Source of the DNA: Hymenobacter chitinivorans DSM 11115
GTDB taxonomy: Bacteria > Bacteroidota > Bacteroidia > Cytophagales > Hymenobacteraceae
Assembly: GCF_002797555.1 (NCBI RefSeq)
Contig: NZ_PGFA01000001.1
Span: 62,001 to 126,000 of the forward strand
DNA length: 64,000 nucleotides
Direction: 5' to 3'
A model generated the notes under the pieces. That model was not told the origin of the DNA. It was given only the letters and a program-made list of their open reading frames with translations, and searched no databases. The position numbers were made by a program, and so were the translations under genes. Shown here one piece after another: positions 11,046-53,566 of this stretch; the stretch's first letter is position 1, and each line of letters starts with the position of its first letter.

Positions 11046-11053
11046 AGGCGGGG

Positions 11054-36369: not shown

Positions 36370-39300
36370 ATGCGCCACTGCCACCCACTTGTGCTACTTC
36401 GCTTACTGGCTTTGCTCGTGCTGCTGGGCGGCGCCGGTGCGGCCCGGGCCCAAACCCTGGCCACGCGGGTGTATACCCTGGCCGACGGACTGCCGCAAAG
36501 CACCGTGTACGCCCTGGCGCAGGACGACCGGGGCCAGCTCTGGGCCGGCACCCAGGGTGGGGTCGGCTGGTTCGACGGCCACCGTTTTCAGAGCCTTGAT
36601 ACCCACCAGGGCCTGCCCGACAACCACGTAACGGCCCTGCTGCCCGGCCCGGGCCACCGCATGCGGCTGGGGCACTACTACGGGGCGTTGTCGGAAATCG
36701 ACTCGGCGGGCAAAGTCCGGCTGATTGGGCCCCGGCAATGGCGGGCCAAGGCGCCCATTCATCAGCTGCTGCCCGCCGCCAAGGGCGGCTTGTGGGCCGT
36801 CACGTCCGGGGCCGGGCTTTACCGCCTGCCGGGCTATTCGGGTGGCCCAGTACAGCATTTTACTAAAGCCCAAGGCTTGCCCTGCGACACAATTAGCCAG
36901 GTAGCGGCCGGCCCCCGCGGGCAGCTCTGGCTGGCTACCCCCGACGGGCTGGGCGTACTCGATACGGTGGCCGGGCGCGCGGTGCCCGCCCCGGCGGTAC
37001 TGGCCCGGCAGCGGCTCTATTCTATCTATCGGGTGTCGGATAAGGCGTACTGGGTGGGCCTGGCCAATGGGCTGGGGGAGCTGACGCAAACCGCGGCCGG
37101 CTGGCAGCTGCGCCCTATCGGCACCAGTCAGGGCCTTTGCCCGGGGCCGGTGCTGCGGGTATTGGCCGACCACCAGGGCCGAATCTGGACCTTGGCGGCG
37201 GCCGGCATTTCGCGCTACGAGCCCCGCACCGGCCGGGCCGTGTCGTTTCCCCAAACCCATTTGCTCAGCGACCAGACCGGCAACAGCCTGCTCGAAGACC
37301 GGGAAGGCAACCTCTGGGCCGCCCTCGACGACGGAATTCTGCAGCACATTGCCGACGAGCGGTTTACCTTATACGGGACTGAGGAAGGCATGAGCGGCGG
37401 TACCGACGTGCAGGCTATTATTCCGATGGGCTCCGGCCTCTACTGGGTGGCTACCCGCAACGGTCTGTGGGAGCTGCGGCCCACCGCCCCGGCCGGGCAG
37501 CGGCTGCGGCCCGGGCACCAGCGGCCGGGCGGGGCCGAGGCCAACTTTATCCGGGCCTTGTTCCGGGACCGGCAGGGCCGGGTGTGGCTGGGCAGCCGCG
37601 GGGCCGGCGCCGCGTATTACGACCCCGCTACCGGGCAATGGCGGGAACTGAGCAACGTGGCCGGGCTGGTCGGGCAAAACGTGCGGCACTTTGCTCAGGA
37701 CCGCCTCGGGCGGGTGTGGGCCGTGACGGGCGGGGGCGGGGCCACCGTTATTCTGAACCCACGTACGGGGGAGGCGCGCACCTACGGCGCGAGTTCCGGC
37801 TTAGGTTCCAACGAGTTTTGGACCGCCTTCCAGGACCGGCAGGGCACGCTCTGGCTGGGCTCCGACGACCGGGGCCTGATTCGGGTGGAGCCGCGGGCTG
37901 CTGGAGCGGATGAGTTCCAACGGGCGCCCGGGCAGCCGGCCCGCCTCAGCATTGGCCATATTACGGAAGACGGCCGCGGGCAGCTGTGGCTGGGCAGCAT
38001 TGGCAGCGGGCTGCTGCGCTACGACGGGCAGCGCCTGCATAGCTACGGCCCCGAAGTTGGGTTGCATTCCAACAACCCATATTTCGCGGAAGCCGATGCC
38101 CAGGGCCGGATTTGGCTGGGTACCGAGCAAGGCCTGGAAGTATTTGACCCGGCTACCCGCCGCACCACGCACTACGGCCTGGCCGAAGGCTTTCTGGGCC
38201 AGGAAACCAACCAGGGCGCGGTGCTCATCGAACCCGACGGGCAGGTGTGGGCCGGCACCATCAACGGGCTGATGCGCTACAACCCCGCCGGGGCCCGCCC
38301 CAACCGGGTGCCGCCCCGCACCCGCATCAGCGGCACCCGGGTCTTTATGCAGGACACCGTGCTGGCCAACGGCTTTACGCTGCCCTACGCGCTGAATCAC
38401 CTGACCTTCGACTTCGTGGGCGTAAGCCTTACCAACCCCGCCAAGGTGCGCTACCAGTACCGGCTGGCGGGCTTCGATGCGCACTGGAGCCGGCCGGGCG
38501 CCACCACCTTTGCCACCTACACCAACCTGCCGCCCGGCCACTACACGTTTGAGGTCAAGGCGGCCAACAACGACGGAGTATGGAATCCGGAGCCGACCCG
38601 GCTGCGCTTCACCATCGGGGCGCCGTGGTGGCGCAGCTGGGGGGCGTACGGGCTGTATCTGCTGGTTCTGGCTGGCTCTTTCTACGCCGTGCGCCGCCAG
38701 ACCCAGCGCCGGGAGCGGGAGCGGGCCCGCCAGCAGCTCGAGTACCAGGCCCTGACCCATCTGCAGGAAATGGACCGGGTCAAAACCGACTTTTTTACCA
38801 ATATCAGCCACGAGCTACGCACCCCGCTGACCCTCATTCTGGGCCCGGCCGAGGAGCTGGCCCAGGACCCCGCGGAGCCCGTACGCCAGCACGGGCAGCG
38901 GATCTTGGGCAACGCCCGCAAGCTGCTCCACCTCATCAACCAGCTCCTGGATTTGAGCCGCCTGGAGGCCGGCGGCCTGGCCCTGCACCCCCAGCCCGGC
39001 GACGTGGCCGCCGCCGCCCGCACCTGGCTGGCCGCCTTTGAAGAACTGGCCACCGCCCGGCAGGTGGGCTTGCACCTGGCCCTGCCCGCCACCGTCGTCC
39101 CCCTGGTATTCGACGCGGCCCGACTGGAGGAAGTGGTAACCAACCTGCTGGCCAATGCCCTGCGCTTTACGCCCGTTGGCGGCCACGTAACCCTGGCCGT
39201 GCGCGACGAGCCCGCCTCAGCCGGGGCGCCCGGCGGGGCGGTAGTTCTGAGCGTGCAGGACACCGGGGTGGGCATTCGGCCCGAGCACGTGCCCCACCTG

Positions 39301-40386
39301 TTCGACCGGTTTTACCAGGTGCCCGGCACTGCAGCCGCTTCTACCGGCTCGGGCGTGGGCCTGGCCCTGGTCAAAGAGCTGACCGAACGGCACGGCGGCA
39401 CGGTGCAGGTGCTGAGCACGCCCGGCGCGGGTACCACCTTCGTGGTGCGTCTGCCCCGGCAGCTCACGCCCGAGCTGACCAGTCAGCCCCTTGCGCCGGC
39501 GCCGGAAGCGGGGCTCAAGGCGTGGGCAGGTACCGCCGGGGAACCGCTGGCGGAGCCGGAAAAAGCGGCTGAGGCGCCGGAAACGGCGGCTGACGCAGAG
39601 GCCGAAGTGGTGCTGGTGGTGGACGACAGCCTGGAGGTGCGGGAATTTGTGCGGGCCGCGCTGGCCACGGAAGGCTACCGGATTGTCACGGCAGCCTCGG
39701 GGCCGGAAGCCGCGCAGCTGGCCGCCGAGCTGGTGCCGAGCCTGGTGGTATCGGATGTAATGATGCCGCCGAGCTTCGACGGGTTTGAGCTCTGCCGCCA
39801 ACTCAAAACCGCCGTGAGCACCAGCCACATTCCCGTGGTGCTGCTCACGGCCCGAGCCACGGCCACCGACCGGATTGAGGGCCTCGAAACCGGAGCCGAT
39901 GCCTACCTGACCAAGCCCTTTGCCCCGCGGGAGCTGCGGGCTCAGGTGCGCAACCTGCTGGCTCTGCGCCGCCGCGTAAGCCAGGAGCTGGCCGAGCCCG
40001 AGCCCAGCGCCCCTGAATCGTTCCGGTCCTACGCGGCCGCCGTGGCCGCCCTGCCCTCCCTGGACCAGACCTTCCTGACCAAAGTGGAAGAAGCCGTGGA
40101 GCAAAACCTGGACAACGGCGAGTTCAGCGTGGAAATGCTCAGTGAGGCAGTCGCCCTGAGCCGGGCCCAGCTCCACCGCAAGCTTAAGGCCCTCACCGGC
40201 CAGGCGCCCAGCGACTTTATCCGCAACCTGCGCCTGCGCCGGGCCCACGTGCTGCTGGCCGCCCGCGCCGGCTCCGTGTCCGAAATTGCTTACCAGGTCG
40301 GCTTCAACTCGCCCGCCCACTTCAGCACCAGCTTCAGCAAGCAGTTCGGCTACGCCCCCAGCGAAGTAGCGGGGTTAATGTGCTAA
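36370..40386 (+). CDS. Hybrid two-component regulator, propeller type (Reg_prop HTCS)
   Basis: The 1338-aa protein has a signal peptide (ALLVLLGGAGAARAQ). About 14 Reg_prop repeats form two seven-bladed beta-propellers at about 30-640 (DRGQLWAGTQGGVGWFDG and many WLGS/WAGT variants). A Y_Y_Y domain follows at about 690-750 (YRLAGFDAHWSRPGATT), then one transmembrane helix (YGLYLLVLAGSFYAV). HisKA has His814 in FTNISHELRTPLT, with HATPase_c at about 910-1035. The receiver has Asp1129 in SDVMMPPSFDG, where the usual MPxMDG loop carries two extra residues. An AraC-type helix-turn-helix ends the protein. Such regulators sense extracellular polysaccharide-derived or host signals. It lies directly upstream of the TANFOR surface block and may control it. 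Confidence 0.94.
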   Translation: MRHCHPLVLLRLLALLVLLGGAGAARAQTLATRVYTLADGLPQSTVYALAQDDRGQLWAGTQGGVGWFDGHRFQSLDTHQGLPDNHVTALLPGPGHRMRLGHYYGALSEIDSAGKVRLIGPRQWRAKAPIHQLLPAAKGGLWAVTSGAGLYRLPGYSGGPVQHFTKAQGLPCDTISQVAAGPRGQLWLATPDGLGVLDTVAGRAVPAPAVLARQRLYSIYRVSDKAYWVGLANGLGELTQTAAGWQLRPIGTSQGLCPGPVLRVLADHQGRIWTLAAAGISRYEPRTGRAVSFPQTHLLSDQTGNSLLEDREGNLWAALDDGILQHIADERFTLYGTEEGMSGGTDVQAIIPMGSGLYWVATRNGLWELRPTAPAGQRLRPGHQRPGGAEANFIRALFRDRQGRVWLGSRGAGAAYYDPATGQWRELSNVAGLVGQNVRHFAQDRLGRVWAVTGGGGATVILNPRTGEARTYGASSGLGSNEFWTAFQDRQGTLWLGSDDRGLIRVEPRAAGADEFQRAPGQPARLSIGHITEDGRGQLWLGSIGSGLLRYDGQRLHSYGPEVGLHSNNPYFAEADAQGRIWLGTEQGLEVFDPATRRTTHYGLAEGFLGQETNQGAVLIEPDGQVWAGTINGLMRYNPAGARPNRVPPRTRISGTRVFMQDTVLANGFTLPYALNHLTFDFVGVSLTNPAKVRYQYRLAGFDAHWSRPGATTFATYTNLPPGHYTFEVKAANNDGVWNPEPTRLRFTIGAPWWRSWGAYGLYLLVLAGSFYAVRRQTQRRERERARQQLEYQALTHLQEMDRVKTDFFTNISHELRTPLTLILGPAEELAQDPAEPVRQHGQRILGNARKLLHLINQLLDLSRLEAGGLALHPQPGDVAAAARTWLAAFEELATARQVGLHLALPATVVPLVFDAARLEEVVTNLLANALRFTPVGGHVTLAVRDEPASAGAPGGAVVLSVQDTGVGIRPEHVPHLFDRFYQVPGTAAASTGSGVGLALVKELTERHGGTVQVLSTPGAGTTFVVRLPRQLTPELTSQPLAPAPEAGLKAWAGTAGEPLAEPEKAAEAPETAADAEAEVVLVVDDSLEVREFVRAALATEGYRIVTAASGPEAAQLAAELVPSLVVSDVMMPPSFDGFELCRQLKTAVSTSHIPVVLLTARATATDRIEGLETGADAYLTKPFAPRELRAQVRNLLALRRRVSQELAEPEPSAPESFRSYAAAVAALPSLDQTFLTKVEEAVEQNLDNGEFSVEMLSEAVALSRAQLHRKLKALTGQAPSDFIRNLRLRRAHVLLAARAGSVSEIAYQVGFNSPAHFSTSFSKQFGYAPSEVAGLMC

Positions 40387-40529: not shown

Positions 40530-40535
40530 AAAGAG

Positions 40536-40582
40536 TTTGCGACCTGCGTGAAAGCCTTTGGCGCGGCATTCGGCCTCCTTTG
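40536..40582 (+). promoter_or_regulatory. Shared upstream element, copy 1 (before GNAT gene)
   Basis: A 21-nt block, TTTGCGACCTGC followed by GTGAAAGCC, is followed after exactly 19 nt by TCCTTTG (ending 40582). The same block, spacer length and TCCTTTG occur at 41310 and 52307. The TTTG at the end is positioned like the -7 TAnnTTTG element of Bacteroidota promoters; the block would then cover the -33 region and upstream. The start codon lies 34 nt downstream of the last TTTG. Confidence 0.65.
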
Positions 40583-40612
40583 CAGCACCTATTGACCTTA
40601 ACTGCTCGTGCT

Positions 40613-41248
40613 ATGCAAACCTTGGCTCTGCCCGCCCGCCGTCTGGGGCCGCCCGATGAAGAATGGGCCGCCGTGCTGCTCACGGAGGCCTATGCGGCCG
40701 ACCCCGCCTACCAAACTCTCTGGGGCCCCGACGTTTTTGAGCCCCTGCTGGGCTGGATGCAGCTACTGGTGCGCTACGGTCTGCGCGAAGGCTGCCTCTA
40801 TACCAGCCCCGGCGAGCAGGCCGTGGCTTTGTGGCTGCCCGACAAGGCCGCCCCGCTATCCTGGGGGCAGCTGCTGCGGGGTGGGCAGCTGGCCCTGTTG
40901 CTCCGGCTGGGCGGCCTGCCGCTGCAGCAGCTGTTGCGCTGGCACCGCACCCAGGATGCCTGGCGCCACCAAACGTTGCCCGTGGCCCACCACTACCTGC
41001 TGGCCCTCGGGGTACGGCCCGCCGGGCAGGGGCGGGGCGAGGCTCGCAACCTGCTGCGGGCGTCGGTGGCCGCCGTGGGCGGGCGGTACCTGCCGTGCTA
41101 CGGGCTGGCCACGGGCTTGGCGGGAGTGTACCTGGGCCAGCGCCTGGGCTTCGAAGTGGCCGCCTTCGCCGAACAGCCGGCCCTGAATGCGCTGGACCGG
41201 CTGCTGGTACCGAGCTGGGCCATGGTGCGGCCGGCCGCCGCCATTTGA
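40613..41248 (+). CDS. GNAT-family N-acetyltransferase
   Basis: The 211-aa cytoplasmic protein resembles GNAT enzymes: an N-terminal LLTEAYAADPAYQTLWG region, strand beta4 with HHYLLALGVRPAGQGRGEARNLLRA containing the acetyl-CoA pyrophosphate motif (RPAGQGRGE), and a C-terminal YLGQRLGFEVAAF segment typical of the fold. The substrate is not evident. The start at 40613 (MQTLALPARR) lies downstream of the shared upstream element; an ATG 33 nt earlier overlaps the proposed -7 element and is less likely. It is the first gene after the propeller-type regulator and has its own terminator. Confidence 0.8.
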   Translation: MQTLALPARRLGPPDEEWAAVLLTEAYAADPAYQTLWGPDVFEPLLGWMQLLVRYGLREGCLYTSPGEQAVALWLPDKAAPLSWGQLLRGGQLALLLRLGGLPLQQLLRWHRTQDAWRHQTLPVAHHYLLALGVRPAGQGRGEARNLLRASVAAVGGRYLPCYGLATGLAGVYLGQRLGFEVAAFAEQPALNALDRLLVPSWAMVRPAAAI

Positions 41249-41267
41249 TTTCGTCGCAAACCCTTAT

Positions 41268-41291
41268 AAAAAGCCGTTAACGGCCTTTTTT
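41268..41291 (+). terminator. Intrinsic terminator after GNAT gene
   Basis: AAAAAGCCGTTAACGGCCTTTTTT forms a short hairpin with one unpaired base and a T tail. It lies 20 bp past the GNAT stop codon and its T-run overlaps the start of the next regulatory element. Confidence 0.75.
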
Positions 41292-41356
41292 GCGACCTGC
41301 ACGCACGTCTTTGCAACCTGCGTGAATGCCTGCCGGCCCGGTCTGCCCGTCCTTTG
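41289..41356 (+). promoter_or_regulatory. Shared upstream element, copy 2 (before lipoprotein/TANFOR operon)
   Basis: The conserved block TTTGCAACCTGC plus GTGAATGCC at 41310-41330 is followed by exactly 19 nt and TCCTTTG (ending 41356). A second, weaker block (TTTGCGACCTGC...) starts at 41289, precisely 21 nt upstream, so the two lie on the same face of the helix. The lipoprotein start codon is 64 nt downstream of the last TTTG. Confidence 0.68.
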
Positions 41357-41416
41357 AGGCTCTTTCTAGTGCCACAACTTCTTCTAATTATACCACGCCA
41401 ACCCTTTCTGCAAAAC

Positions 41417-41989
41417 ATGAAAACATTACTTACTCCCGTTGCCTTGCTCCGCATTCTGCTGCTGAGCTCCCTGGTCGGATTAGCCGCCTGCGGCAGCAAA
41501 GACAGTGAAGACCCCACGCCAGACCCTGCGGCCACCGCGGCTACGAACGAGGTGCACTGGAAAATCAGTGGCACCGAATACGTGGCCCGCGACATTGCCC
41601 AGGCCCAGGCCCATTACCGGCCCACTACCGCCGACAACCTGCCCGCCACGGCCAAGGATATGGTCATCATTGCCAACGACGGCAAAAACTACCAGCTGAC
41701 GCTGCTCATGACCAACTTCACCGGCGTGGGCACCTACACCATGACCTCGGCGGGCGGTACCAACGGCGGCTTTACCCTCATGGACGGCTCGAAGCTGACC
41801 TACAGCTCCATGTGGTCGGCCAAGGCGCCGGCGGGGCAGTTTGTGGTAACTGAGTTTGATGCTGCCAAGTCGATCCTGAAAGGCACCTTCAGCTTTAACG
41901 CCCGGGTGCGCATTTCCAGCGGCGTGTACGGCTCCGACCAGGACGTGACCAGCGGCACGTTCAGCTTTAAGTCGCTGGTTAAATACTAG
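41417..41989 (+). CDS. Lipoprotein, DUF6252-like
   Basis: The 190-aa protein has a lipoprotein signal (LVGLAAC, Cys25) and a linker of acidic and Ala residues. The mature domain (about 40-190) reads VHWKISGTEYVARDIAQAQ...KNYQLTLLMTNFTGVGTYTM...LKGTFSFNARVR...VTSGTFSFKSL, a beta-rich pattern close to that of the lipoproteins grouped as DUF6252. It shares the final VTxGxFSFxx ending and overall layout with the lipoprotein at 52434, a likely paralogue. It is the first gene of the barrel/TANFOR/fibronectin operon (25 bp to the next gene). Confidence 0.78.
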   Translation: MKTLLTPVALLRILLLSSLVGLAACGSKDSEDPTPDPAATAATNEVHWKISGTEYVARDIAQAQAHYRPTTADNLPATAKDMVIIANDGKNYQLTLLMTNFTGVGTYTMTSAGGTNGGFTLMDGSKLTYSSMWSAKAPAGQFVVTEFDAAKSILKGTFSFNARVRISSGVYGSDQDVTSGTFSFKSLVKY

Positions 41990-42014
41990 GCCGCCCGGCT
42001 AGTCGCCTTTTCGG

Positions 42015-43751
42015 ATGAAAAATTCCTGTCGTTTTTGCCACCCCGCGGGTTGGGGTTTGGGGGGGCTATGCCTATTGGTCAGCCTCGCCGCCCGGGGCCA
42101 GGACCTGGCGGCGCTGCCCCAGCAGAAGCCCTTCACGGTAACCGGCGCGGTAGACGTGCGCACCATTTTCTACCAGGCCCGGGGCATTTCGGCCCGCCGC
42201 CAACCGTTTTCCTACGTGCTCAGCGGCTCGCCCACGCTGAATATCTACGGGCTGGCCGTGCCCCTGAGCTTTACGCTGAGTGAGCAGGACCGGCAGTTTC
42301 GCCAGCCCTTCAACCAGTTTGGCCTGAGCCCCACCTACAAGTGGGTAACCTTGCACGGCGGCTACCGCAACCTGACCTACTCGCCCTTTACCCTGGCCGG
42401 CCACACCGTGCTGGGGGCGGGCCTGGAGCTGACGCCGGGCAAGTTCCGCTTCGGCTTCATCACCGGCCGCCTCAGCCGGGCCACCACCGTGGACCCGGTG
42501 AGCGGGGCGCTGGCGCCGTTTTCCTTCTCGCGCCGGGGCGTAGCGGGTCACATTGGGGTGGGCTCCGAGAAAAGCTTCGTGGACCTGAGCTTTGTACGGG
42601 CCCACGACGACAGCAGCAGCGTAAGCCGGGCCACCCGCCAGGAAGCGGCCAAAACCGGGGCGGTGAACAACGCCGTGCTGCCCGCCGAAAACGTGGTACT
42701 GGGCCTGAGCGGCAAGCTGACCTTCGCCAAAAACTGGCTGGTGGAAGGCGACGGGGGCCTAAGCGTGTACACCCGCAACCAGGGCAGCAAATTGCAAGTC
42801 GATGCCCTGCCAGCCGCCGTTTCCAATTCCCTGGGCAAGCTCATTACCCTGAACGGCTCGACGGAAACCTATACCGCCTGGCAGGCGGCGGCGGGCTACC
42901 AGAAAAACAGCACCGGCCTGAAAGTGCGCTACCGCCGCGTGGCCCCGGGCTACCAGAGCATGGGCGCCTACTACTTCCAGGACGACGTGGAAAACCTGAC
43001 CCTGGTGCCCAGCTTCGCGCTCTTTAAGCAGCATCTGCGCTTCAACGGCAGTCTGGGCGTGCAGCAGGACAACCTGCGCCGGCAAAAGCAGCTGACCAGT
43101 CGGCGCTTCATTGCCTCGGCCACGGCCACCATCGACTTCACCGAACGGCTGGGCGTGGACGTGGGCTACTCCAACTTCAGCACCGACCAGCAGCCCGGGG
43201 CCGTGCAGGTGTCCGACACGTTTCGGCTGGCCCAAACCCAGCAGAGCGTGTCAGTGGCCCCGCGCTACACCTACGCCGGCGAAACCTGGGGCCACACTGT
43301 GCTGCTGAGCGTGGACCGCGCCACCCTGCGCGACCAGGGCCCCGGCGGGCTGGGCCGCCTCGGCGACTTCACTTCCCTCAACGCTTTTCTGACTTACCAG
43401 CTGACCTGGGTGCCACGCCGCTTCACGGTGGGCGCCACCTACAACTTCACCCGCCTGGAGCTGGCCCAGGGCAACGACGGCAACCGCGGCCTGCAACTCA
43501 CCGCCGACCAGAGCTTCGGGCCCAAGGGCGACTTCCGGGTGGGCTTGCGCGGCTCCTGGCTGCGGGGGCTGCGGGTAGGGCAGGAAAGCAAGCTGCTCGG
43601 CGGCGGGCTGCGCCTCTCGTACCGCGCCGGCAAGCACCACACCTTCCGCACCGACGTGGCCTTTACCGGCAACTACCCCGACTCCGAAACGCCCCAACTC
43701 CGCCGCTACTCCGAGTCGCGGGGGGAAGTGGGCTACACCTTCTCGCTCTGA
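42015..43751 (+). CDS. Outer-membrane beta-barrel protein of the TANFOR cluster
   Basis: The 578-aa protein has a signal peptide (LGGLCLLVSLAARG) and consists of alternating hydrophobic/polar strands throughout (VLGAGLELTPGKFRFGFITGRL, GVGSEKSFVDLSFVRAHDD) ending with an aromatic-type final strand (GEVGYTFSL). This is the pattern of a large outer-membrane barrel with about 20 or more strands. I do not recognise a named family with certainty. It lies between the lipoprotein and the 1995-aa TANFOR protein (52 bp before the latter) and may anchor or export it; that is an inference from context. Confidence 0.72.
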   Translation: MKNSCRFCHPAGWGLGGLCLLVSLAARGQDLAALPQQKPFTVTGAVDVRTIFYQARGISARRQPFSYVLSGSPTLNIYGLAVPLSFTLSEQDRQFRQPFNQFGLSPTYKWVTLHGGYRNLTYSPFTLAGHTVLGAGLELTPGKFRFGFITGRLSRATTVDPVSGALAPFSFSRRGVAGHIGVGSEKSFVDLSFVRAHDDSSSVSRATRQEAAKTGAVNNAVLPAENVVLGLSGKLTFAKNWLVEGDGGLSVYTRNQGSKLQVDALPAAVSNSLGKLITLNGSTETYTAWQAAAGYQKNSTGLKVRYRRVAPGYQSMGAYYFQDDVENLTLVPSFALFKQHLRFNGSLGVQQDNLRRQKQLTSRRFIASATATIDFTERLGVDVGYSNFSTDQQPGAVQVSDTFRLAQTQQSVSVAPRYTYAGETWGHTVLLSVDRATLRDQGPGGLGRLGDFTSLNAFLTYQLTWVPRRFTVGATYNFTRLELAQGNDGNRGLQLTADQSFGPKGDFRVGLRGSWLRGLRVGQESKLLGGGLRLSYRAGKHHTFRTDVAFTGNYPDSETPQLRRYSESRGEVGYTFSL

Positions 43752-43803
43752 TTCGCCCTTGTCCTAACTCCACTGACCTCTTCTTTCCCCGGAACCCCCT
43801 GCT

Positions 43804-46800
43804 ATGAACTTTCCGCTACCATTTTTCTTGCTTCGGCGTCGCCCCGCGGTGCTGCTACTTGCCTTGGCGCTCAGCCTCGGTCTGCTCGGTGTGAGCGGCG
43901 CGGCCCGGGCCCAGTCGGCCAACGACGTGCGGGTGACCGTGCTGGTGTTGCCGCCCTACTCGACCCACTTATCCGACTACGTGGACCAGCCCAACCGGCT
44001 CGTCGTCACGCTCACCAACCTGACCCGCACGCCGGTGAGCCTACAGCTGGCCGGCACGCTCACCGGCGACAATGGGGTACGGGTGCAAACCAGCGCCCAG
44101 GCCCGCTCGCCGCGCCCGGTTCAGCTGACGGGGCTGCAAACCCGCCAGCTGGACCGGGACGAGCTGGGGCAATTGTTCGACGAAAACCAGCTGACCTACA
44201 GCGGCGTGACGGTGCAGCAAATGGTGCGCGGCAATGGCCTGCCCGAAGGCAGCTACACGCTCTGCGTCCGGGCCCTTGACTACGCCACCTTGCAGCCCCG
44301 CTCGGCCGAAAACCCGCTGGGTTGCAGCCGCTCCTTTTTGCTGCGCAGCCTGGAACCGCCAATTATCGTGCGGCCCGCCGCCGAGGAAATCGTGAAAACC
44401 CAGAGCCCGCAGAACATCCTCTTTACCTGGACCCGGCCGGCCGGCGCCCCCATCAGCACCGAGTACGAGCTGCGCATCGTGGAAATGTCGGACCCCAAGC
44501 GCAACCCCAACGACGCCTTTCTGGCCGGCACCACACCAGCCCTGTTTGAGCGCACGGTAAGCCCGGCCACCACCTTGCTCTACGGCCCCGCCGACCCGGC
44601 CCTGATTCCGGGCCGGCGCTACGCCTTTGCCGTCACGGCCCGCGACCCGCAAGGCCGCGCGGTGTTCCGCAACAATGGCCGCTCCGAGGTCAGCACCTTC
44701 GTGTACGGGGCCGCCACCAAGTATTCCGACTCTAACTCGGGTGTGGTAGTAACCCCGCCGGTGAAAGTGCCCGGCCTCGACAAAGGCCCCGTTAAAGTGG
44801 CCGCGCCGCCGGTGAAGGCCACCGGGCCGGCCGTGAATCCGGCCGCGTACCAGCCCGTGTTCTACACGACCCAGATTACCACCCAGATAGTCGGCTTTTT
44901 TCCCGACGACCCCGCGCAGAAAACTCACCTGTTTGCCAATAAGTCGGTCAAGCTGGTCATCGACTACGAGGCCATTTATTCCGACGGCTCCCGGTCCAGC
45001 AACGAATATGCCGCCCACCGCATGCCCGACTACCACAAGGTGCTGGCCACCGGCACCACCGACGGCAGCGGCAACCTGCAGCTGGCCTACCTGACCCAGA
45101 TTAATTACCGGACCACGGCAGACACCACCTTCGCCGCCGATAATACTGAAGTGCCGACCATGTTTCACGGCCGGCTGCAACGCGGGCTGCGCATTTTGGT
45201 CAACAGCCAGTACTACACCAGCCCCGACCAGATATTCCGGCCCCCCACGGGCGCCAACGTGGCCTTTACGCTGCAACAGCAGCGGGCCGGCGTGCGGTCC
45301 GTGAGCTTGAACGTGCGCCTGCAGCCCCGGCAGTTCAGCCAGGCCGAAGTCCAGGAAAACGGGCAGGCCAAGCAGGACCCGCTGCTGAACGTGCCGGTGT
45401 ACGTGCTGCGCAAGTGGAAACCTACGGCCTTCCCGCCCGAAGGCAACGCCCCCGATATGGCCTCGCCGCTGGCCGGTTACGTGGTAGTGTCCAAGGCCGC
45501 CGCCAGCCAGCTGACGACCATTGACGGGGTGAAATACGCCACGGCTACGTTCAACATGCTGCTGCCGGGCCTCAACCCCAGCACGCCCTACTACCTCTAC
45601 GCCGACGTGCGAAGTGAGGCTATGGGTGACAACCGCGCGGTGGCCTACACCTGCCCGGTCCTGCCCTGGAGCATCGGCAACGAGCCCAGCCCCGACCATA
45701 CCCCGGGCTCGTACTACGGCAAGAAAGTGGAGGGCAAGCAGCGCGACCTGTACAACCTGCAGAACCCCTGGCTGGTGGGCAACGGGCAGTGGAACCTGAG
45801 CCATGCCGTGGACGTGGCCAACCTGAGCCTGGAGCCCCAGGCCCCGCGGGTGGTGGGCAACACCTACCGCGGTGAAAACGCCAGCAAGGCCCTGCCCGGC
45901 GTCACGGCCCTGCTTATGCGCATCAACGACGACTGGACCGGCGGCACCGCCGAGCGGTACGGGTACTCCCGCGAAAAGGACGGCTTCTTCGTCTTTACCA
46001 AAGTACACCCCGACGTGAATGCCGCCGGCAAGATTACGGGCCCCAGCAAGCGGTGGGTGACGCTCCAAAAAGACGGCTACGCGACTCTGGTGACGCCCAT
46101 GCTCAACAACGGCAAGCCCCTGGCCTTCGGGCAGCAGCTCGATTTGGGTAAAATGCTCTTGCAGCCCCTGGGCCGGGTCAAAGGCGAAATCGTGGGCGAC
46201 GTGGTGCTCGAATCAGTGACCATCAGCGGGGTCGAAGCGCCCGGCAAAGGCAAAAAGAAAGGCCAGAACATCCAGGTAACCACCTCGAAAGGCGCCGTGC
46301 TCACGCCGCCGGCCCGGGTATGGGTAGGCGAGGGGCTGGAGCAGGTGCTCAACAAGCCCAAAGCGGAAAGCGGCGGCCCCCGCAGCTTCGACGTGGCGGC
46401 GCCCACCGGCAAGCAGATGCTGCACGTGGAGCCCTACGACCCCAACTACTTCACCACCGACACCCTCATCAACGTCACCGGCGACAAGTTCGACGTGGGC
46501 CGGGTGCGCCTCGTGCACAAACTCCACCGCCTGCATATCATCGTGTATGAGTCCGACAAAAAAGGCGGCACCGTAACTTCCGTGGGCGGCGTACAGCCCA
46601 TCGGGCAGGGCGGCAGCATGGCCGGGACGGGCGTTTCAGGAACCAGCGCTACTTCCTACACCCCGGCCAGCGGCTCGGGCAGCAAGAACAGCGGCCCCGC
46701 TCCAACCACCACGACTACGGTCGGTGCCGCCGGCGGGGTGGGCGGCAACTTCCAGGGTGGCGCCGGCAATGTGAACAGTGCTCTGGGCACCGGCGTCAAC

Positions 46801-49791
46801 TCGGCTACCGTCAATCAGCTGGCGGCCAGTGTTCTGCCCGGTTGGGGCACGGCCATCAAAAACGTGAAAGTGGAAGTGCTGGCGTTGAGTGAGCCTACCG
46901 AAACGACCACCGACGTGGGCGGCAGCGCCACGCTGCGCTTTGCCTCCAGCGGCACCAAGTTTACCCTGCGCCTCACGCCCCTCGATGGCAGCTACCAGGC
47001 CCGGGAAGTAACGCTGGTCAACAACCTCTCCCGCCAGGACAGCGTCTACCACCTGGCCCTCGAACCCGCCCTGGTGGTGCGCGGGCAGGTGCGCCTGGGC
47101 AAGCAGCCCATTGCCGGCGCCCGGGTGTTCGTCGATTGGTCGGGCCTGAAGGTGGAAACCTTCTCCGACGCCAACGGCAACTACGAGCTGGGCGGCGTGC
47201 CGGCCAAGCAGCCCCTCACGCTGCGGGCCACGCGCACCGGCAGCAGCTACGTGGGCGCCGAGCTGAAACGTACGTTCAACACCGCTACCGACGGCGTCGA
47301 TTTGCTCATCAGTCAGTACAACAAGCTCGATTTGAGCCGCCTGCTGGGCGTGCCGGTCGAGGTGGAAACCCTGGAAGACAAAGCCGGGGTGGTCAGCATC
47401 ACCGGGGCCTTCGTGCGGCTGCGCGGCACCGCCGGCCTGGCCCCGGCCGATACGGCCCTGCGCCTGCCCTTCGGCACGGTAGCCGTGAAAGGCGGCGCCG
47501 AGAAAAACGTCAAAGGCATTCCCTACATGATGCCCGCCGCCGGCAACAGCGTGACCAGCAGCCTGACCAAGGCCGAAGTAGTAGTGAACGGCAAGCTCCC
47601 CGGCTTTTTGGTGAAGTCTGACGGCCTGCGGGTGGTAGGCGGGGCCAATGGGCAGCCGGGCGCGGTGCGTGGGGCGGTATATCTGCCCGTGACGCAGTTC
47701 AAAGACCAGAGCATCAGCTTCGGCGCTACCGACAAAGTTTATCTGGCGCATCCCACGGCCCCGGCCCCCGACCGGCTGCTCTACCCGGCCCTGGTGCCGG
47801 CCGGTACCGAAGCCGCTCCGGCCCCGCGCTGGCAGCCGGTTACCGCCGACAACAAAGCCCTGACCTACAAGCTCTACAATTTCCCCGCCGAGGCTGCCAC
47901 CGCGGCCTCGGCCCTGGGCCACGACACGCTTCGGCTGGCTACCACCCTGCACCCGCAGCCCGCCGGCCTGGCCACGCCACTCAGCGTCAACGTGGGCGTT
48001 ATCAGTGCCCTGCCCGCCAAAGTGCTGCCCGTGTCGGGCACGGCCAAACTGAGCTTACCCCTGGAAAGCTGGACCCTGGAATCGAGCAAGTTTACGCTCA
48101 GCAAAAACCAGGGCCTGTATTTGGCCAGCGGCACGCTCCACCTCGGCGCCATAACCGACGCGGCCCACGACGTGGCCTTCGAAGAGCTGACCATTCTGCC
48201 CGCCAGCCTCAGCCAGGCCAGTTTTAACCTGAGCAGCCTCAAGCTCGGCGGCGTCGGTACGCTGGCCGTGGTTAAGGAAGCCAAGGCCCTGCTGGCCTTC
48301 GACGCGGGCCAGAAGCACTGGAGCCTCGACGTGCTGCGCCCCGACCAAACCGGCGCGGCCGTGGCTTCGCTCAGCGGCCTGCCCGACGCGGCCGGCAGCG
48401 TGGATTTGCGCCTGCTGACCTTCTTTGCCAACCAAACCCAGGCTGCCCAGCTCATCGACAACAGCCCGGCCCTGACCCTGAACCAGGTCGTGAGCTTCCG
48501 ACCCGTGACGATGGTGGTGGGCCAGGACAACCTGCAGCTCGGGGGCACCATCAACCTCAACATCCCGCAGCTGGGCGAGCAGGACGGCAAGCTGACCATC
48601 GTGCGCGAAAACCAGCAGCCTAAGCTCCTGGTAACCATGCCCGACATGCAGTTCCAGACCGGCCCCTTGGTCGTGAAGCTGCCCGGGCTGAACTACCAGC
48701 GCCTGGCCACGGGCGGCGTCAGCTTCGAGGGCACGGCCGAGGAGCCCGGGGTGGTCAAGTTCAACGTGAAGCTCTACCACACCCCCGATTCCACGGCCCT
48801 TGGCCTCAAGCCCCAGCAGAAGTTTGAGCTGGCCCAGGGGGGTGGATACCTCGACAACGTGCGCGGCTGGATGCGGCCCAGCGGCGGCCAGTGGCCCCTG
48901 CTCACTTTCGGCGGCGACGTGAAAAACGCCAACGGCCTGAGCGGGGTGCTGTCCTTGTCGGTGCACGGGGATATTATGTCGGAAAACCAGCAGATAACGG
49001 TGAAAAACGTGCCCACGCCCTTCGGCGACATGCAGCTCACCTTCGACATCCCGAAAAAGCGCCTCGTAGGCTACCTCCCGTTTGAAAAAGACATGGGTGG
49101 GGGCACCAAGGTCCACGGCTCGGCCAACCTGCTGGCCGACCCCAGCGGCTGGATGATGCTGTCGGCCGGCGAAATGGAGAAAAGCAACCCAGCCCTGCAG
49201 GGTGCGGCCATGCTCATGGTGGGCAGCCACGCCCTGGAGCCCGAAATTCAGGAGCAGTTCCAGAAATTTTCCTACTTCTACCAGACCAAGGGCACCATGC
49301 CGCCTTCCTTCCCCAAAACCGTCGAGGGCTTCTACTTCGAGGGTAAAATTGGGATGCCGGTGCCCATCATTCCCAGCTTTGATGTGGATCTGATTGTCAT
49401 TTCGGGCAAGCTGGAGTCGGTCATGGGCGGCGACATGCGCATGGGCATGAACTTCAGCAACGGCACCGAGTTTGGCATCGGCCAAAGCGTGTTCCTCGAC
49501 GTGAAGGCCGGCGTGGGCGGTACTGCAATTATTGTTTGCGGCGGCGTGGAAGGCGGCGTGCATGCCGACCTCAGCGCCGATGGCAAGGTGAACGTGAGCA
49601 GCGGCGACTGGAGCATTGCCGGCGACGCCTCAGTGAAGCTTACTGCCACAGCCTACGGCGGCTACGGCGTCTGCGACTCCGACTGCTCTTGGTTTACCTG
49701 CGACAAACACGAAAAGAGCGTGGACCTGACCGTCGGCGCCAAAATCGGCGTCAGCAATGCCGGCACCGACTATTCCGTCTACCTCAAATAA
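43804..49791 (+). CDS. TANFOR-domain giant surface protein (1995 aa)
   Basis: This is the largest gene of the window. After a signal peptide (LLGVSGAARAQ) the N-terminus is a TANFOR domain at about 38-180 (VRVTVLVLPPYSTHLSDYV, LVVTLTNLTRTPVSLQL, GLPEGSYTLCVRALDY, GCSRSFLL), a domain named from Tannerella forsythia. A fibronectin-like region follows at about 180-310 (PPIIVRPAAEEIVKTQSPQN...TWTRP). At least two carboxypeptidase-regulatory-like beta-domains are visible (GNYELGGVPAKQPLTLRAT at about 1120-1145). The last 60 residues have four cysteines (VCDSDCSWFTCDKHEK) and an end rich in beta strands. Ser/Thr/Gly-rich linkers lie at about 935-1000. No T9SS tail is evident. Its role is unknown; export and surface display are likely. 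Confidence 0.86.
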   Translation: MNFPLPFFLLRRRPAVLLLALALSLGLLGVSGAARAQSANDVRVTVLVLPPYSTHLSDYVDQPNRLVVTLTNLTRTPVSLQLAGTLTGDNGVRVQTSAQARSPRPVQLTGLQTRQLDRDELGQLFDENQLTYSGVTVQQMVRGNGLPEGSYTLCVRALDYATLQPRSAENPLGCSRSFLLRSLEPPIIVRPAAEEIVKTQSPQNILFTWTRPAGAPISTEYELRIVEMSDPKRNPNDAFLAGTTPALFERTVSPATTLLYGPADPALIPGRRYAFAVTARDPQGRAVFRNNGRSEVSTFVYGAATKYSDSNSGVVVTPPVKVPGLDKGPVKVAAPPVKATGPAVNPAAYQPVFYTTQITTQIVGFFPDDPAQKTHLFANKSVKLVIDYEAIYSDGSRSSNEYAAHRMPDYHKVLATGTTDGSGNLQLAYLTQINYRTTADTTFAADNTEVPTMFHGRLQRGLRILVNSQYYTSPDQIFRPPTGANVAFTLQQQRAGVRSVSLNVRLQPRQFSQAEVQENGQAKQDPLLNVPVYVLRKWKPTAFPPEGNAPDMASPLAGYVVVSKAAASQLTTIDGVKYATATFNMLLPGLNPSTPYYLYADVRSEAMGDNRAVAYTCPVLPWSIGNEPSPDHTPGSYYGKKVEGKQRDLYNLQNPWLVGNGQWNLSHAVDVANLSLEPQAPRVVGNTYRGENASKALPGVTALLMRINDDWTGGTAERYGYSREKDGFFVFTKVHPDVNAAGKITGPSKRWVTLQKDGYATLVTPMLNNGKPLAFGQQLDLGKMLLQPLGRVKGEIVGDVVLESVTISGVEAPGKGKKKGQNIQVTTSKGAVLTPPARVWVGEGLEQVLNKPKAESGGPRSFDVAAPTGKQMLHVEPYDPNYFTTDTLINVTGDKFDVGRVRLVHKLHRLHIIVYESDKKGGTVTSVGGVQPIGQGGSMAGTGVSGTSATSYTPASGSGSKNSGPAPTTTTTVGAAGGVGGNFQGGAGNVNSALGTGVNSATVNQLAASVLPGWGTAIKNVKVEVLALSEPTETTTDVGGSATLRFASSGTKFTLRLTPLDGSYQAREVTLVNNLSRQDSVYHLALEPALVVRGQVRLGKQPIAGARVFVDWSGLKVETFSDANGNYELGGVPAKQPLTLRATRTGSSYVGAELKRTFNTATDGVDLLISQYNKLDLSRLLGVPVEVETLEDKAGVVSITGAFVRLRGTAGLAPADTALRLPFGTVAVKGGAEKNVKGIPYMMPAAGNSVTSSLTKAEVVVNGKLPGFLVKSDGLRVVGGANGQPGAVRGAVYLPVTQFKDQSISFGATDKVYLAHPTAPAPDRLLYPALVPAGTEAAPAPRWQPVTADNKALTYKLYNFPAEAATAASALGHDTLRLATTLHPQPAGLATPLSVNVGVISALPAKVLPVSGTAKLSLPLESWTLESSKFTLSKNQGLYLASGTLHLGAITDAAHDVAFEELTILPASLSQASFNLSSLKLGGVGTLAVVKEAKALLAFDAGQKHWSLDVLRPDQTGAAVASLSGLPDAAGSVDLRLLTFFANQTQAAQLIDNSPALTLNQVVSFRPVTMVVGQDNLQLGGTINLNIPQLGEQDGKLTIVRENQQPKLLVTMPDMQFQTGPLVVKLPGLNYQRLATGGVSFEGTAEEPGVVKFNVKLYHTPDSTALGLKPQQKFELAQGGGYLDNVRGWMRPSGGQWPLLTFGGDVKNANGLSGVLSLSVHGDIMSENQQITVKNVPTPFGDMQLTFDIPKKRLVGYLPFEKDMGGGTKVHGSANLLADPSGWMMLSAGEMEKSNPALQGAAMLMVGSHALEPEIQEQFQKFSYFYQTKGTMPPSFPKTVEGFYFEGKIGMPVPIIPSFDVDLIVISGKLESVMGGDMRMGMNFSNGTEFGIGQSVFLDVKAGVGGTAIIVCGGVEGGVHADLSADGKVNVSSGDWSIAGDASVKLTATAYGGYGVCDSDCSWFTCDKHEKSVDLTVGAKIGVSNAGTDYSVYLK

Positions 49792-49799
49792 CCCCGGCC

Positions 49800-51872
49800 A
49801 TGAATCTGTTTCAGAAGCAAATAAAAAACGGGCCGCTGGCGGTGCTGGCGGCGTTGGTAATGTCCGCCGCGCAGGCCCAGAACCCAACTGCTCCCGCCGT
49901 GGGCGGAGGCCGGGGAATCTTCGTGTACTCGCCCAAGCCCCAGGCGGCCGGCACCTGGGCCGGGGCCGCCGCTACCAGCATTCAGGTGGAGCGGCGGGTG
50001 GCCAGCGGCACGGCGTTTGCGCCGGTAGCTCAGCTTTCGGCCCCGGCTACGGCCGCCGAGTTTGAGGCCCGGGTGCTGAGTTTCAACCGCCGCCTGACCA
50101 TTCCGTTGACCGGCCTGGAAGGCCCGCTGGTGCAGAAGCTGGCCCGTATCTGGGAACGAACCCACCGCCTCGACAGCCTGCGCGCCTACAGCCAGCTGAT
50201 GCCAGTGCAGCAGGCTGTGGGCCTGGTATTACTCGACAGCACGGCCCAGCGTGGCACTTCGTACGTGTACCGCGTCACGGCCCAGCGCAACGGCGCCCCG
50301 GTGGGTGCGGCGGCCCAGAGTGCGGCCGTGAGCTGGCCGGGCAAGCCCACCGGCGGCAAGCTGAAAAAGCTGCCTGCGGTAACCGAAGACAACCGGATTA
50401 TTCCGCGCTGGCGCCAGCTCGACGGGCCGCAGCGGGCTGTGTACGTGCAGCTCCGCCGCCAGGACGACGCCCGTGGGGAGTGGAAAACGGCGGCTGCTCC
50501 ACTCACCCTGGAGTCGTTCCAGAAGGCCCTGGCCCTGGTGGCTTACGACCGAAACGTACAGCCCGTGCACGCCTACCGCTACACCCTGCGCACCCTCGAC
50601 CAGTACGAAAACCCCGGTCCCGCCGCCGATACCGTGCTGGCCGCCGCCTACAACTTCCTCGACGCGGCCGTGCTGCGCGACTTCCGGGCCCAGGCCCAGC
50701 AGGCCGGCCCCACCACCGAGCCCGGCATCCGGCTGAGCTGGCGCCTGCCCGACGCTAACAAGCTCCGCTCGGTGCGCATCTTTCGCAGCACCCTGCTCGA
50801 CAAGGATTTCAAGCTCCTGGCCGAAGTGACGCCCACCGAAGCAGGCTACTTTGACGCCACCGCCGCGCCCATGCAAAAGTACTACTACTACGTGCAGCCC
50901 ACCGGCCTTTTGCAGGAACCGGGTGTGCCCAGCAGCAAGGCTTTTGCTTTGTTTGAGGACCAGCGCCCCCCGCTGCCGCCCCACGAGGTGCGCGCCGCCC
51001 CGGTGCCCGGCGGCATCCGGCTGCGCTGGCTGCCCGGCGACAAATTCACCAAGGGCTACTATGTGTACCGGGCCGCCGGGCCGGCGGCCAAGCTCACCCT
51101 CGTCGGAGCCCTGCGGCCCCACCAGGAAAAAGCCGCCGAGCAGGTCTTCGTCGACAGCAGCCGCACGTTGCAGCCCGCCGTGCGCTACCGCTACGCCGTG
51201 CAGGCCGAGAATTCCAGCCACCGCCCCAGCATTTACTCCGATACGGTGGAAACGACGGCCGGCGTGAAGCGTCCCGTGGCTACTGCGGCTCACGCCCTGG
51301 CGCCGGTAGCCGGGGCCGAGGCCCAGTGGGAAAACGGCCGACCCGTGGTGCGCTGGCAAGCCGCCCCGGAAGCGGCTTTCTACGAAGTGAGCCGCCGCGT
51401 GGAGGGCCAGCCGCAGTTTCAGCGCCTGCCGCTGGGCCCCCGTATGCCCGGTTCCCGTACCGAGCGGCGCCCCTTGGCCCAGGCCGGCTTTTGCGACTCC
51501 ACGGCCCGCCCCGGCCAGAGCTACGAGTACGAAATTGTGAGCCTGGATGAGCAGGGCCGCCGCAGCACCCCGGCGCGGCTGAGCTTGCGGGCCGCCGAAA
51601 CTGCTGCCGCGCCAGCCACACTGACGGCGGCAGCCGTGGGCAAAACCGTGGAACTGCGCTGGGCCGCCGAGGCCGCCGCCCCGCAGTACCGGGTGTACCG
51701 CTACGAGCCCGGCGCCAAGCCCCAGGCCGTGGCTACCGTGGCGGCCAGCCCCGCCACCTACCGCGACGCCACCGTGCAGCCCCGCCGAACTTACTTCTAC
51801 TACGTGGCTTCACTCGACGCCCAGCGCCGGGAAGCGGCCCGCAGTGAGCCAATCGGGGTGCGGGTGCCCTAG
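49800..51872 (+). CDS. Secreted protein with fibronectin type III-like repeats
   Basis: The 690-aa protein starts 8 bp after the TANFOR stop codon (MNLFQKQIKNGPLAVLAALVMSAAQAQ, a clear signal peptide). At least five fibronectin type III-like modules are visible, with repeated forms such as RLSWRLPDANKLRSVRIFRS, RLRWLPGDKFTKGYYVYRA, VVRWQAAPEAAFYEVSRRV and ELRWAAEAAAPQYRVYRYE, each closing with YYYYV/YEYEIVSLD-type strands. No T9SS sorting tail is evident. The very short spacing means translation is coupled to the TANFOR gene, which suggests that the two proteins work together at the cell surface. Confidence 0.85.
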   Translation: MNLFQKQIKNGPLAVLAALVMSAAQAQNPTAPAVGGGRGIFVYSPKPQAAGTWAGAAATSIQVERRVASGTAFAPVAQLSAPATAAEFEARVLSFNRRLTIPLTGLEGPLVQKLARIWERTHRLDSLRAYSQLMPVQQAVGLVLLDSTAQRGTSYVYRVTAQRNGAPVGAAAQSAAVSWPGKPTGGKLKKLPAVTEDNRIIPRWRQLDGPQRAVYVQLRRQDDARGEWKTAAAPLTLESFQKALALVAYDRNVQPVHAYRYTLRTLDQYENPGPAADTVLAAAYNFLDAAVLRDFRAQAQQAGPTTEPGIRLSWRLPDANKLRSVRIFRSTLLDKDFKLLAEVTPTEAGYFDATAAPMQKYYYYVQPTGLLQEPGVPSSKAFALFEDQRPPLPPHEVRAAPVPGGIRLRWLPGDKFTKGYYVYRAAGPAAKLTLVGALRPHQEKAAEQVFVDSSRTLQPAVRYRYAVQAENSSHRPSIYSDTVETTAGVKRPVATAAHALAPVAGAEAQWENGRPVVRWQAAPEAAFYEVSRRVEGQPQFQRLPLGPRMPGSRTERRPLAQAGFCDSTARPGQSYEYEIVSLDEQGRRSTPARLSLRAAETAAAPATLTAAAVGKTVELRWAAEAAAPQYRVYRYEPGAKPQAVATVAASPATYRDATVQPRRTYFYYVASLDAQRREAARSEPIGVRVP

Positions 51873-51997
51873 ATAACGCGGCAGTTGTTCCGGCAACAGA
51901 CCGGGTTGTCACGGTTAACGGCCGCGGCAAGCTTACTGGGCTTATGGTGGCCCTTCGGCCGCTCCAACCCGGCGCCGGAATACGCCTAGTCTGCTAG

Positions 51998-52138
51998 GTA
52001 TGCATAATTACTAAATGCCAAAAAATGTATACCATTTTCGCTTTAGTTAGGTATACAATTTTGGTAATAGCAAGTACGTGTATACAGTTTGCTGGCTCGT
52101 TTGGTATACGATGCATTTTTAGAATGTAACCTGTATAC
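51998..52138. repeat. Six GTATAC-type palindromes at alternating 29/24-bp spacing
   Basis: Sites start at 51998 (GTATGC), 52027, 52051, 52080, 52104 and 52133 (all GTATAC). The distances are 29, 24, 29, 24 and 29 bp, so the period is 53 bp. Odd sites are preceded by G (GGTATAC) and even ones by T (TGTATAC). The tract is AT-rich and lies in the 561-bp gap between the fibronectin-like gene and the next lipoprotein gene. The remaining part of that gap (51873-51990) shows nothing I can name. Confidence 0.8.
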
Positions 52139-52269
52139 AATATAACAGGGTGCGGGCGGGGCTTTCTGCTGCGGGCCGTTGGTGCCGAGAAGTTGTCCAC
52201 TTGTGGTGCCTGAACCGGACTACGGGCTACGCTAAAGTCGGCAGCACACCCCCTTTTGACGGCAGAATA

Positions 52270-52353
52270 CGACCTGCGCGCACCCGGCGCGACGCCCGCG
52301 CATGCTTTTGCGACCTGCCCGAAAGCCCCTGCCCGCGCCTTGCCCTTCCTTTG
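52270..52353 (+). promoter_or_regulatory. Shared upstream element, copy 3 (before second lipoprotein operon)
   Basis: The conserved block TTTGCGACCTGC plus CCGAAAGCC at 52307-52327 is followed by exactly 19 nt and TCCTTTG (ending 52353). Further degenerate copies of the CGACCTGC core start at 52270 and 52290, that is 41 and 21 nt upstream of the core in the main block at 52311. The next start codon is about 80 nt downstream. Confidence 0.68.
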
Positions 52354-52433: not shown

Positions 52434-52976
52434 ATGACTATGCTTTCTTTCACCAACCGCTTCTTCCAATCGGTGCTGCTGCTGGGCGTGCTGGCCGCGG
52501 CGGCTTGTTCCTGCTCTAAAGACGATGCCGACGCGGCCGACCCCAACGGCGACGGCGACGGTACCCTGACCTGGACCCACAACGGCACCACCTACACCAG
52601 CAAGGCCTATTCCAGCGCCATCGTCGACAGTGATACTTCCCTGCTGATTACGGGCAGCTCGGCCGACATGAAAAACGCAGTGTCGTTGCGGCTCAAGAAA
52701 ATATACAAGCTGGGCGCCACCACCTACGACCTCAAGAAAGGCTCGGTGCTCAATAATTACCCCGTGGGCGGCATCACGCTCAACAGCGCCACGCAGTTTA
52801 TTACCCTCTACGGCCCCAGCGCCAGCAACGGCTCCATCGTGGTGACCCAGTACGACCGGGCCGCCCAGAAAGTGGCCGGCACCTTCAGCTTCACCGGCGG
52901 GCCCGTGCCCAACTCGGGCAGCACCGGCACCCAGAGCGTGACCAACGGCTCGTTCAGCTTCACCCGCTTCCGCTAG
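52434..52976 (+). CDS. Lipoprotein, DUF6252-like (paralogue of the one at 41417)
   Basis: The 180-aa protein has a lipoprotein signal (LGVLAAAAC, Cys25 or Cys27) and an acidic linker (KDDADAADPNGDGDG) that resembles a surface-exposure signal. The mature domain (LTWTHNGTTYTSKAY...VSLRLKKIYKLGATTYDL...KVAGTFSFTGG...VTNGSFSFTRF) follows the same scheme as the 41417 lipoprotein. ATGs at 52434 and 52440 are both possible starts. It is preceded by the third copy of the shared upstream element and followed 53 bp later by another lipoprotein gene. Confidence 0.78.
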   Translation: MTMLSFTNRFFQSVLLLGVLAAAACSCSKDDADAADPNGDGDGTLTWTHNGTTYTSKAYSSAIVDSDTSLLITGSSADMKNAVSLRLKKIYKLGATTYDLKKGSVLNNYPVGGITLNSATQFITLYGPSASNGSIVVTQYDRAAQKVAGTFSFTGGPVPNSGSTGTQSVTNGSFSFTRFR

Positions 52977-53029: not shown

Positions 53030-53566
53030 ATGAAAACGCTCCGCCATATTCTGCTCCTGAGTTTGCTGCTCACGGCCTTTGCCTGCAAAAAAGATAAGGA
53101 GGCCGAGCCCACCAAAACCGACCTGCTGACGGCCAAAACCTGGAAAGACCAGTCCCAGACGCTGCGCCTCAATACCAGTGAAGGCACCCGGCCCACGGCC
53201 GCGGCCGACGTGAATACCTACCAGTTCACGCGCGACGGAAAAGTGACCATCACGGCGGCCAACAACACCAGCACCACCGGTACCTGGGCCTTTGTCAACA
53301 ACGAGTCCCAACTGGCCCTTACCTCGGCCGGGACGACCAATACGTTTGCCCTCTTTGAGGTCAGCGCCACCAAGCTGTCCTTTGGGCTGAGCTACAACCA
53401 GGCCCAGATTCAGCAGGGCCTAGGCAGCAACGGGGGCGCGGAAGGGCAGTTTCTGAAGCTGCTGCTGCTCTCGGCCGGCAACTTCACCTTCCCTAGCGGC
53501 ACGCCCACGATTCCCACCAATCAGCTCACGGCTGTGGACTGGAAAAACAACGCCCTGCCGCGCTAA
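53030..53566 (+). CDS. Lipocalin-like lipoprotein
   Basis: The 178-aa protein has a lipobox (LLTAFAC, Cys19) and a Lys/Asp/Glu-rich start to the mature part (KKDKEAEPTKTD). The mature domain begins LLTAKTWKDQSQTLRLN and has YQFTRDGKVTITAANN.TSTTGTWAFVNNESQLALTS, the usual pattern of lipocalin-like Bacteroidota lipoproteins with a repeated strand order. It follows the preceding lipoprotein gene by 53 bp and is probably in the same transcript. Ligand and role are unknown. Confidence 0.78.
   Translation: MKTLRHILLLSLLLTAFACKKDKEAEPTKTDLLTAKTWKDQSQTLRLNTSEGTRPTAAADVNTYQFTRDGKVTITAANNTSTTGTWAFVNNESQLALTSAGTTNTFALFEVSATKLSFGLSYNQAQIQQGLGSNGGAEGQFLKLLLLSAGNFTFPSGTPTIPTNQLTAVDWKNNALPR

Follow-up and report, generated by a model that had tools for sequence, protein, structure and literature searches.

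Direct-repeat promoter elements around a TANFOR-type locus of Hymenobacter chitinivorans as likely activation sites of a neighbouring hybrid two-component system

Hybrid two-component systems (HTCS), in which a sensor, a histidine kinase, a receiver and an AraC-type helix-turn-helix (HTH) share one chain, are known as glycan sensors of Bacteroidota. In the parts of this and the other cited papers covered here, direct repeats averaging 21 bp were predicted for 16 of 36 HTCS of Bacteroides thetaiotaomicron, the systems were analysed beside susC/susD and glycan use, and dimers on one DNA face were inferred (Ravcheev et al. 2013, PMC3878776); electrophoretic mobility shift assays found HTCS regulator parts binding such promoters (PMC11253607). 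The XylS operator is similar in having two direct bipartite half-sites with a 21-bp period, although XylS is a one-component regulator from another phylum with its own half-site sequence (PMC4514859). A regulator treated in PMC12125979 is a one-component, XylR-like protein and was left aside. In the primary promoter of Bacteroidetes, TAnnTTTG stands at −7 and a TTTG close to −33 (cited in PMC7366714), and TANFOR proteins have been described as Bacteroidetes polymorphic toxins (PMC7073777). Here we analysed a 64,000-nucleotide stretch of Hymenobacter chitinivorans DSM 11115 (NZ_PGFA01000001.1, positions 62,001 to 126,000; hereafter the window), in which one repeated element precedes an acetyltransferase gene and two lipoprotein operons, one of them with a TANFOR-type gene. 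These elements are very probably the sites at which the adjoining HTCS (36370–40386) would activate all three.

The element consists of a 21-nt block, TTTGCRACCTGC followed by SYGAAWGCC, which matches exactly at 40536, 41310 and 52307 on the forward strand. At all three copies a gap of 19 nt leads to TCCTTTG (40576, 41350 and 52347), and the first and last TTTG are 43 nt apart, while the 19-nt spacers are unlike in sequence. These figures are exactly those of the preliminary description, which had also seen conserved geometry over unlike spacers and had placed extra blocks upstream of the second and third copies. Those blocks are present: TTTGCGACCTGCACGCACGTC at 41289 lies exactly 21 nt 5′ of copy 2, and at 52286 a half-site with GCGAC lies 21 nt 5′ of copy 3; a weaker half-site, judged by eye, stands at 52266, 41 nt 5′ of copy 3. 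No upstream half-site was found before copy 1, where only the proximal one is present. The preceding stretch (40380–40535) is rich in TAGCACAT/GTGCTAAT-like words, and three related genomes (G030, G037 and G092) have their distal half-site there; an insertion in the window genome may have replaced it.

Judged by its sequence, the block is a predicted AraC-type half-site of 21 bp that is usually paired, and the direct-repeat period of about 21 bp predicted for HTCS operators occurs at two of the three window sites. The last G of TCCTTTG lies 32, 62 and 82 nt before the assumed ATG of copies 1, 2 and 3; in ending on TTTG the element is comparable to that of the primary promoter. It differs in that the TA is absent from TCCTTTG and the −33 region is taken up by the half-site, and its placement at −7 is putative. 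An Rfam search of 40300–52600 for an RNA element gave no match at the gathering threshold.

The 12-mer TTTGCRACCTGC has four matches in the whole 5,870,407-base genome, all within an 11.8-kb stretch, and the reversed pattern used as a control has none. With up to three mismatches the 21-mer occurs at eight places, against two for the reversed control: the three copies, the copy at 41289, and four others inside long open frames without a tandem partner or TCCTTTG. As a genome-wide marker the single block was rejected, since TTTGCRACCTGC alone is present in 94 of 120 genomes of the genus. What confers specificity is a tandem partner, a TTTG at the set distance and an adjacent HTCS. Ten of 14 regions around 21-mer matches, picked after inspection of their contexts, carry an HTCS with a matching HTH part and four do not (L101, L102, L111 and L112).

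The candidate regulator is 1338 aa long and ends 150 nt before the first site. It combines a Reg_prop propeller sensor with Y_Y_Y, HisKA, HATPase_c, Response_reg and AraC-type HTH_18 domains, all above the Pfam cut-off, and so has every part of an HTCS in one chain. Its receiver carries a SHIP motif at residue 1152 that resembles the S/CHIP motif of Bacteroides HTCS (PMC11253607), and Ala1266 falls within the first recognition helix (SRAQLHRKLKALT). Two further genes in the genome match both the receiver and the HTH parts, at 44% and 41%; by eye, both have a different, periplasmic-binding-protein-like sensor at the N-terminus. One of the two lies in the window (17742–20585, reverse strand) and adjoins SusC/SusD-like genes (14156–17602 and 12686–14128, reverse strand), an ordinary polysaccharide-type HTCS locus.

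Relatives of the TANFOR-type protein occur in 10 of the 120 genomes at E 1e-20, its own included. Four of the others (G015, G030, G037 and G092) keep the gene order HTCS, GNAT, lipoprotein, barrel, TANFOR, with HTCS identities of 66–90% on the best segments and three block sites each (≤3 mismatches). Of the 15 sites in these four genomes and the window, 10 are paired with a GCRAC at 21 bp and keep the distance to TTTG. G056 (locus L149) has the HTCS too, and its tandem site is of the strict kind, followed by TTTG at 41. G066 (HTCS 49%) has no strict site; diverged repeats are visible there by eye and unscored. No HTCS lies on the 14-kb TANFOR contig of G095, and the distantly related G041 gave no HTCS match at E 1e-45. 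Three side observations concern these loci. Up to four head-to-tail 21-bp repeats of GCAAC type lie 5′ of a predicted exported protein in L149 (about 5690–5830). The TANFOR relative of G015 (L053, about 8880–14836) is reported as two pieces in different frames. In more distant genomes the N-terminal part of the TANFOR relatives is 71–78% alike and the remainder about 30%, as in polymorphic proteins.

A receiver–HTH search of the 120 genomes showed a break between 52 listed rows (≥214 bits) and other HTCS (≤193 bits), which delimits a subfamily. The test set comprised 35 further subfamily loci, selected by HTCS protein score alone, and the control set 20 HTCS loci below the break. The strict site, GCRAC-21-GCRAC with TTTG at 39–41 from the proximal G, was found in 13/35 subfamily loci and 0/20 controls. 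A weight matrix trained on 10 tandem sites of TANFOR loci only (the window and L053–L056) put 21/35 subfamily loci above the best control (4.9), one of them by only 0.1. With 10 loci found earlier through block matches added, 22 of 45 loci were positive. In a grid of spacings over these 45, the cell for 21 and 40 held 15 cases, with 7 at 21 and 39 and 4 at 21 and 41; all other first spacings gave 62 cases in 943 cells (mean 0.066, maximum 4), and 20 dinucleotide shuffles gave at most one case per cell. Near copies among the loci (L165/L166, L107/L150) make these counts non-independent.

Flanks of 450 nt around distant Bacteroidota HTCS (L210–L281) suggest that 21-bp direct repeats may be a general HTCS rule. 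At 13/16 matches a spacing of 21 ranked top, in 10 of 59 loci, against a mean of 1.1 and a maximum of 3 for other spacings, though one or more of the matches are simple repeats; at 14/16 it was found in only 4 of 59 loci against a maximum of 3. Plain k-mer spacing spectra of such flanks were discarded, being confounded by other repeats.

The base inside the half-site follows a residue of the HTCS. In most of the subfamily the first recognition helix reads SR[A/T]Q[L/V]HRKLKALT. Where the variable residue is Ala, all 8 tandem-site loci have GCGAC in at least one half-site (24 G and 4 A over all half-sites); where it is Thr, none of 22 does (46 A, 1 C and 1 T). Fisher's test of Ala/Thr against G/A gives p 1.7e-7 with kinship left out of account. 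In a tree computed without this column, three changes of the Ala label are required, forced by the starred branches, and 3/3 independent pairs agree, a number too small for significance. The covariation gives indirect and modest grounds for assigning the site to the HTCS and not to a different neighbouring gene.

The gene behind the first site has no Pfam match, and its predicted structure (AlphaFold2 pLDDT 80.6; best Foldseek hit 7k09_A, a puromycin N-acetyltransferase, TMq 0.76) plainly has the GNAT fold in the model. The TANFOR-like domain matches TIGR02542 at E 1.5e-15 with a score below threshold (57.4 bits, cut-off 67). Like the described TANFOR polymorphic toxins, this is a large protein with an N-terminal TANFOR-like domain, an Fn3-like stretch and exported neighbours; unlike them, in the parts of PMC7073777 covered, it scores under the NCBIfam cut-off and gave no C-terminal toxin match in Pfam up to E 1, where a novel domain is possible. 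Coordinates are collected in Table 1.

Table 1. Features of the window (operon boundaries, start codons and −7 assignments are putative throughout)
Feature	Position	Strand	Basis
LuxR-type regulator (GerE), rival candidate	35341..36135	-	family scan
HTCS, candidate regulator	36370..40386	+	Pfam domains, recognition helix, SHIP motif
Half-site before GNAT gene, single copy	40536..40556	+	pattern match
TCCTTTG, putative -7 element of GNAT promoter	40576..40582	+	sequence; role inferred
GNAT-fold acetyltransferase, start codon assumed	40613..41248	+	AlphaFold2 + Foldseek
Distal half-site, lipoprotein/barrel/TANFOR operon	41289..41309	+	pattern match
Proximal half-site, lipoprotein/barrel/TANFOR operon	41310..41330	+	pattern match
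TCCTTTG, putative -7 element, lipoprotein/barrel/TANFOR operon	41350..41356	+	role inferred
Lipoprotein-like protein 1 (DUF6252), start assumed	41417..41989	+	Pfam scan, from 41354
Protein called barrel in the preliminary description, no Pfam match	42015..43751	+	Pfam scan
TANFOR-type protein, 1995 aa	43804..49791	+	TIGR02542, 57.4 bits, below cut-off 67
689-aa protein, TANFOR operon, start assumed	49803..51872	+	no family match below E 0.3
Weak further half-site of second lipoprotein operon, 41 nt 5′ of proximal one	52266..52286	+	by eye
Distal half-site, second lipoprotein operon	52286..52306	+	sequence
Proximal half-site, second lipoprotein operon	52307..52327	+	pattern match
TCCTTTG, putative -7 element, second lipoprotein operon	52347..52353	+	role inferred
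Lipoprotein-like protein 2 (DUF6252; Riean_0653-like), start assumed	52434..52976	+	family scan
Lipoprotein-like protein 3, start assumed	53030..53566	+	family scan

Among the 22 site-bearing test loci, nine have a GNAT match, seven a match to lipoprotein 2 or 3, and one a TANFOR or barrel match (L149). L106 and L108 retain dnaX beside the HTCS, with another exported protein as the first target. A scan of eight target-side proteins found Peptidase_S74 in two (L106 and L110), PAP2 in one (L104) and no family in four; one L110 protein matched a type IX secretion system (T9SS) sorting tail weakly, at 22 bits against a cut-off of 27. For the window, the regulon that the preliminary description drew around the TANFOR surface system is the best reading; the same HTCS subfamily and kind of site also occur at loci without TANFOR. 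None of 50 subfamily loci (35 + 10 + 6, L149 counted once) had a SusC or SusD match, against 18/20 controls for SusC and 14/20 for SusD, so the SusC/SusD-like neighbours that mark polysaccharide utilisation loci are missing from these loci. As an observation on its own, a dnaX–LuxR-type–HTCS neighbourhood is common to several genomes (L106, L108 and L178–L180), in varying order and with differing exported proteins downstream.

The observed sites, their geometry, their conservation and their correlations with the HTCS are best read as activator sites of a small dedicated regulon, as had been proposed, with activation being the inferred effect. Upon an outside signal the HTCS would be phosphorylated, and its AraC-type domains would then line up along the same face of the DNA, with each 21-bp half-site taken by a single monomer. 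If TTTG is placed at about −8 to −5, the half-sites would span about −72 to −52 and −51 to −31. The proximal monomer would cover the −33 region and could aid RNA polymerase at a weak −7 element, TCCTTTG against the consensus TAnnTTTG.

Several observations weigh against this interpretation. By matrix, 14 of the 35 subfamily loci fail to beat the controls, and 22 of 35 have no strict site; some contigs stop close by, and the HTH helices are not all alike. The bare 21-mer (≤2 mismatches) is only in mild excess over the 120 genomes, our own tally giving 47 places in 33 genomes for it and 35 places for its reversed control. In G030, G037 and G092 the second sites read ACTTTTG, and the −7 place of the third sites, which stand before a gene of prolyl-oligopeptidase-like type, holds TCCTTTA or TTCTTTA. 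The GNAT site of the window genome (G000) and of G015 is one half-site only. Three independent contrasts underlie the covariation, with a sign-test p of 0.25. Finally, no HTCS is seen in the 19.9 kb fetched at the G042 TANFOR locus; G042 and G095 have theirs elsewhere in the assemblies.

The same binding could instead repress, because a proximal half-site of this geometry would cover the −33 region. We consider this very unlikely: the −7 element departs from the consensus, as would befit activator-dependent promoters. AraC-type regulators with paired direct sites beside a promoter are mostly activators. XylS and MtlR are examples (PMC4514859).

Activation by the HTCS would also be the wrong reading if the sites belonged to the LuxR-type regulator, the second candidate of the preliminary description, whose gene adjoins the HTCS here and in G015, G030, G037, G092, G049 and G116. 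This is highly improbable, as the DNA fetched for 18 of the 22 site-bearing test loci gave no LuxR match, the half-site base tracks the HTCS residue, and the sites repeat directly at 21 bp, whereas operators of LuxR-type regulators are usually inverted repeats. We favour the HTCS of the two candidates because of its position, the direct-repeat geometry, its co-conservation with the sites and the residue–base covariation.

No more probable is that the block is the core promoter of a dedicated sigma factor, for example of the extracytoplasmic function type, acting without an activator. The fixed 19-nt gap to TCCTTTG does resemble a two-part promoter, but the head-to-tail repeat at 21 bp upstream would be superfluous for one, the sites accompany HTCS genes across loci, and no sigma-factor family scored above cut-off among the six to eight neighbouring proteins scanned. 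That the four near-identical blocks in 11.8 kb stem from a small repeat, mobile or intergenic, with no regulatory role is a negligible prospect, given that the geometry is constant though the spacers differ, the genome has no copies elsewhere, orthologous positions keep the blocks in other species, and diverged versions keep the distances of 21 and 40; this spacing, kept at diverged loci, already contradicts it.

The predicted regulation by the HTCS is thus of a known kind, alike to the B. thetaiotaomicron regulons in an AraC-type HTCS beside its targets and in direct repeats of about 21 bp (PMC3878776). What is new is that its targets lie outside polysaccharide loci, unlike the susC/susD neighbourhoods of that species, together with the residue–base link. 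Neither this link nor the fixed distance to the −7 element is stated in the parts of PMC3878776 covered, neither Hymenobacter nor two-component control came up in a term search of the covered part of PMC7073777, and the open-licence papers searched held no report of this regulon or of the residue–base link.

A wider reading can be offered tentatively and with some doubt. A separate Hymenobacter HTCS clade may have left polysaccharide uptake and become a dedicated switch for surface-display or competition loci. One sensor and a 21-bp half-site code set 19 nt from the −7 element would serve interchangeable payloads, which often follow an acetyltransferase gene: TANFOR proteins, lipoproteins, and proteins that are S74-chaperoned or exported by the T9SS. 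One Ala/Thr position in the first recognition helix would set the half-site G/A, so that each sensor's genes could be read from sequence.

For the genus, the 52 listed copies in 120 genomes represent HTCS that lack SusC/SusD at 50 loci, and the predicted subfamily sites precede acetyltransferase, lipoprotein and exported-protein genes, with a TANFOR protein, of a class described as polymorphic toxins, at one locus group. If the assignment to the HTCS is true, it would name a likely on-switch for loci of this sort, its sequence rule of 21-bp half-sites 19 nt from the −7 element would find HTCS targets outside polysaccharide loci, and the single residue–base pair would be a possible start of a recognition code.

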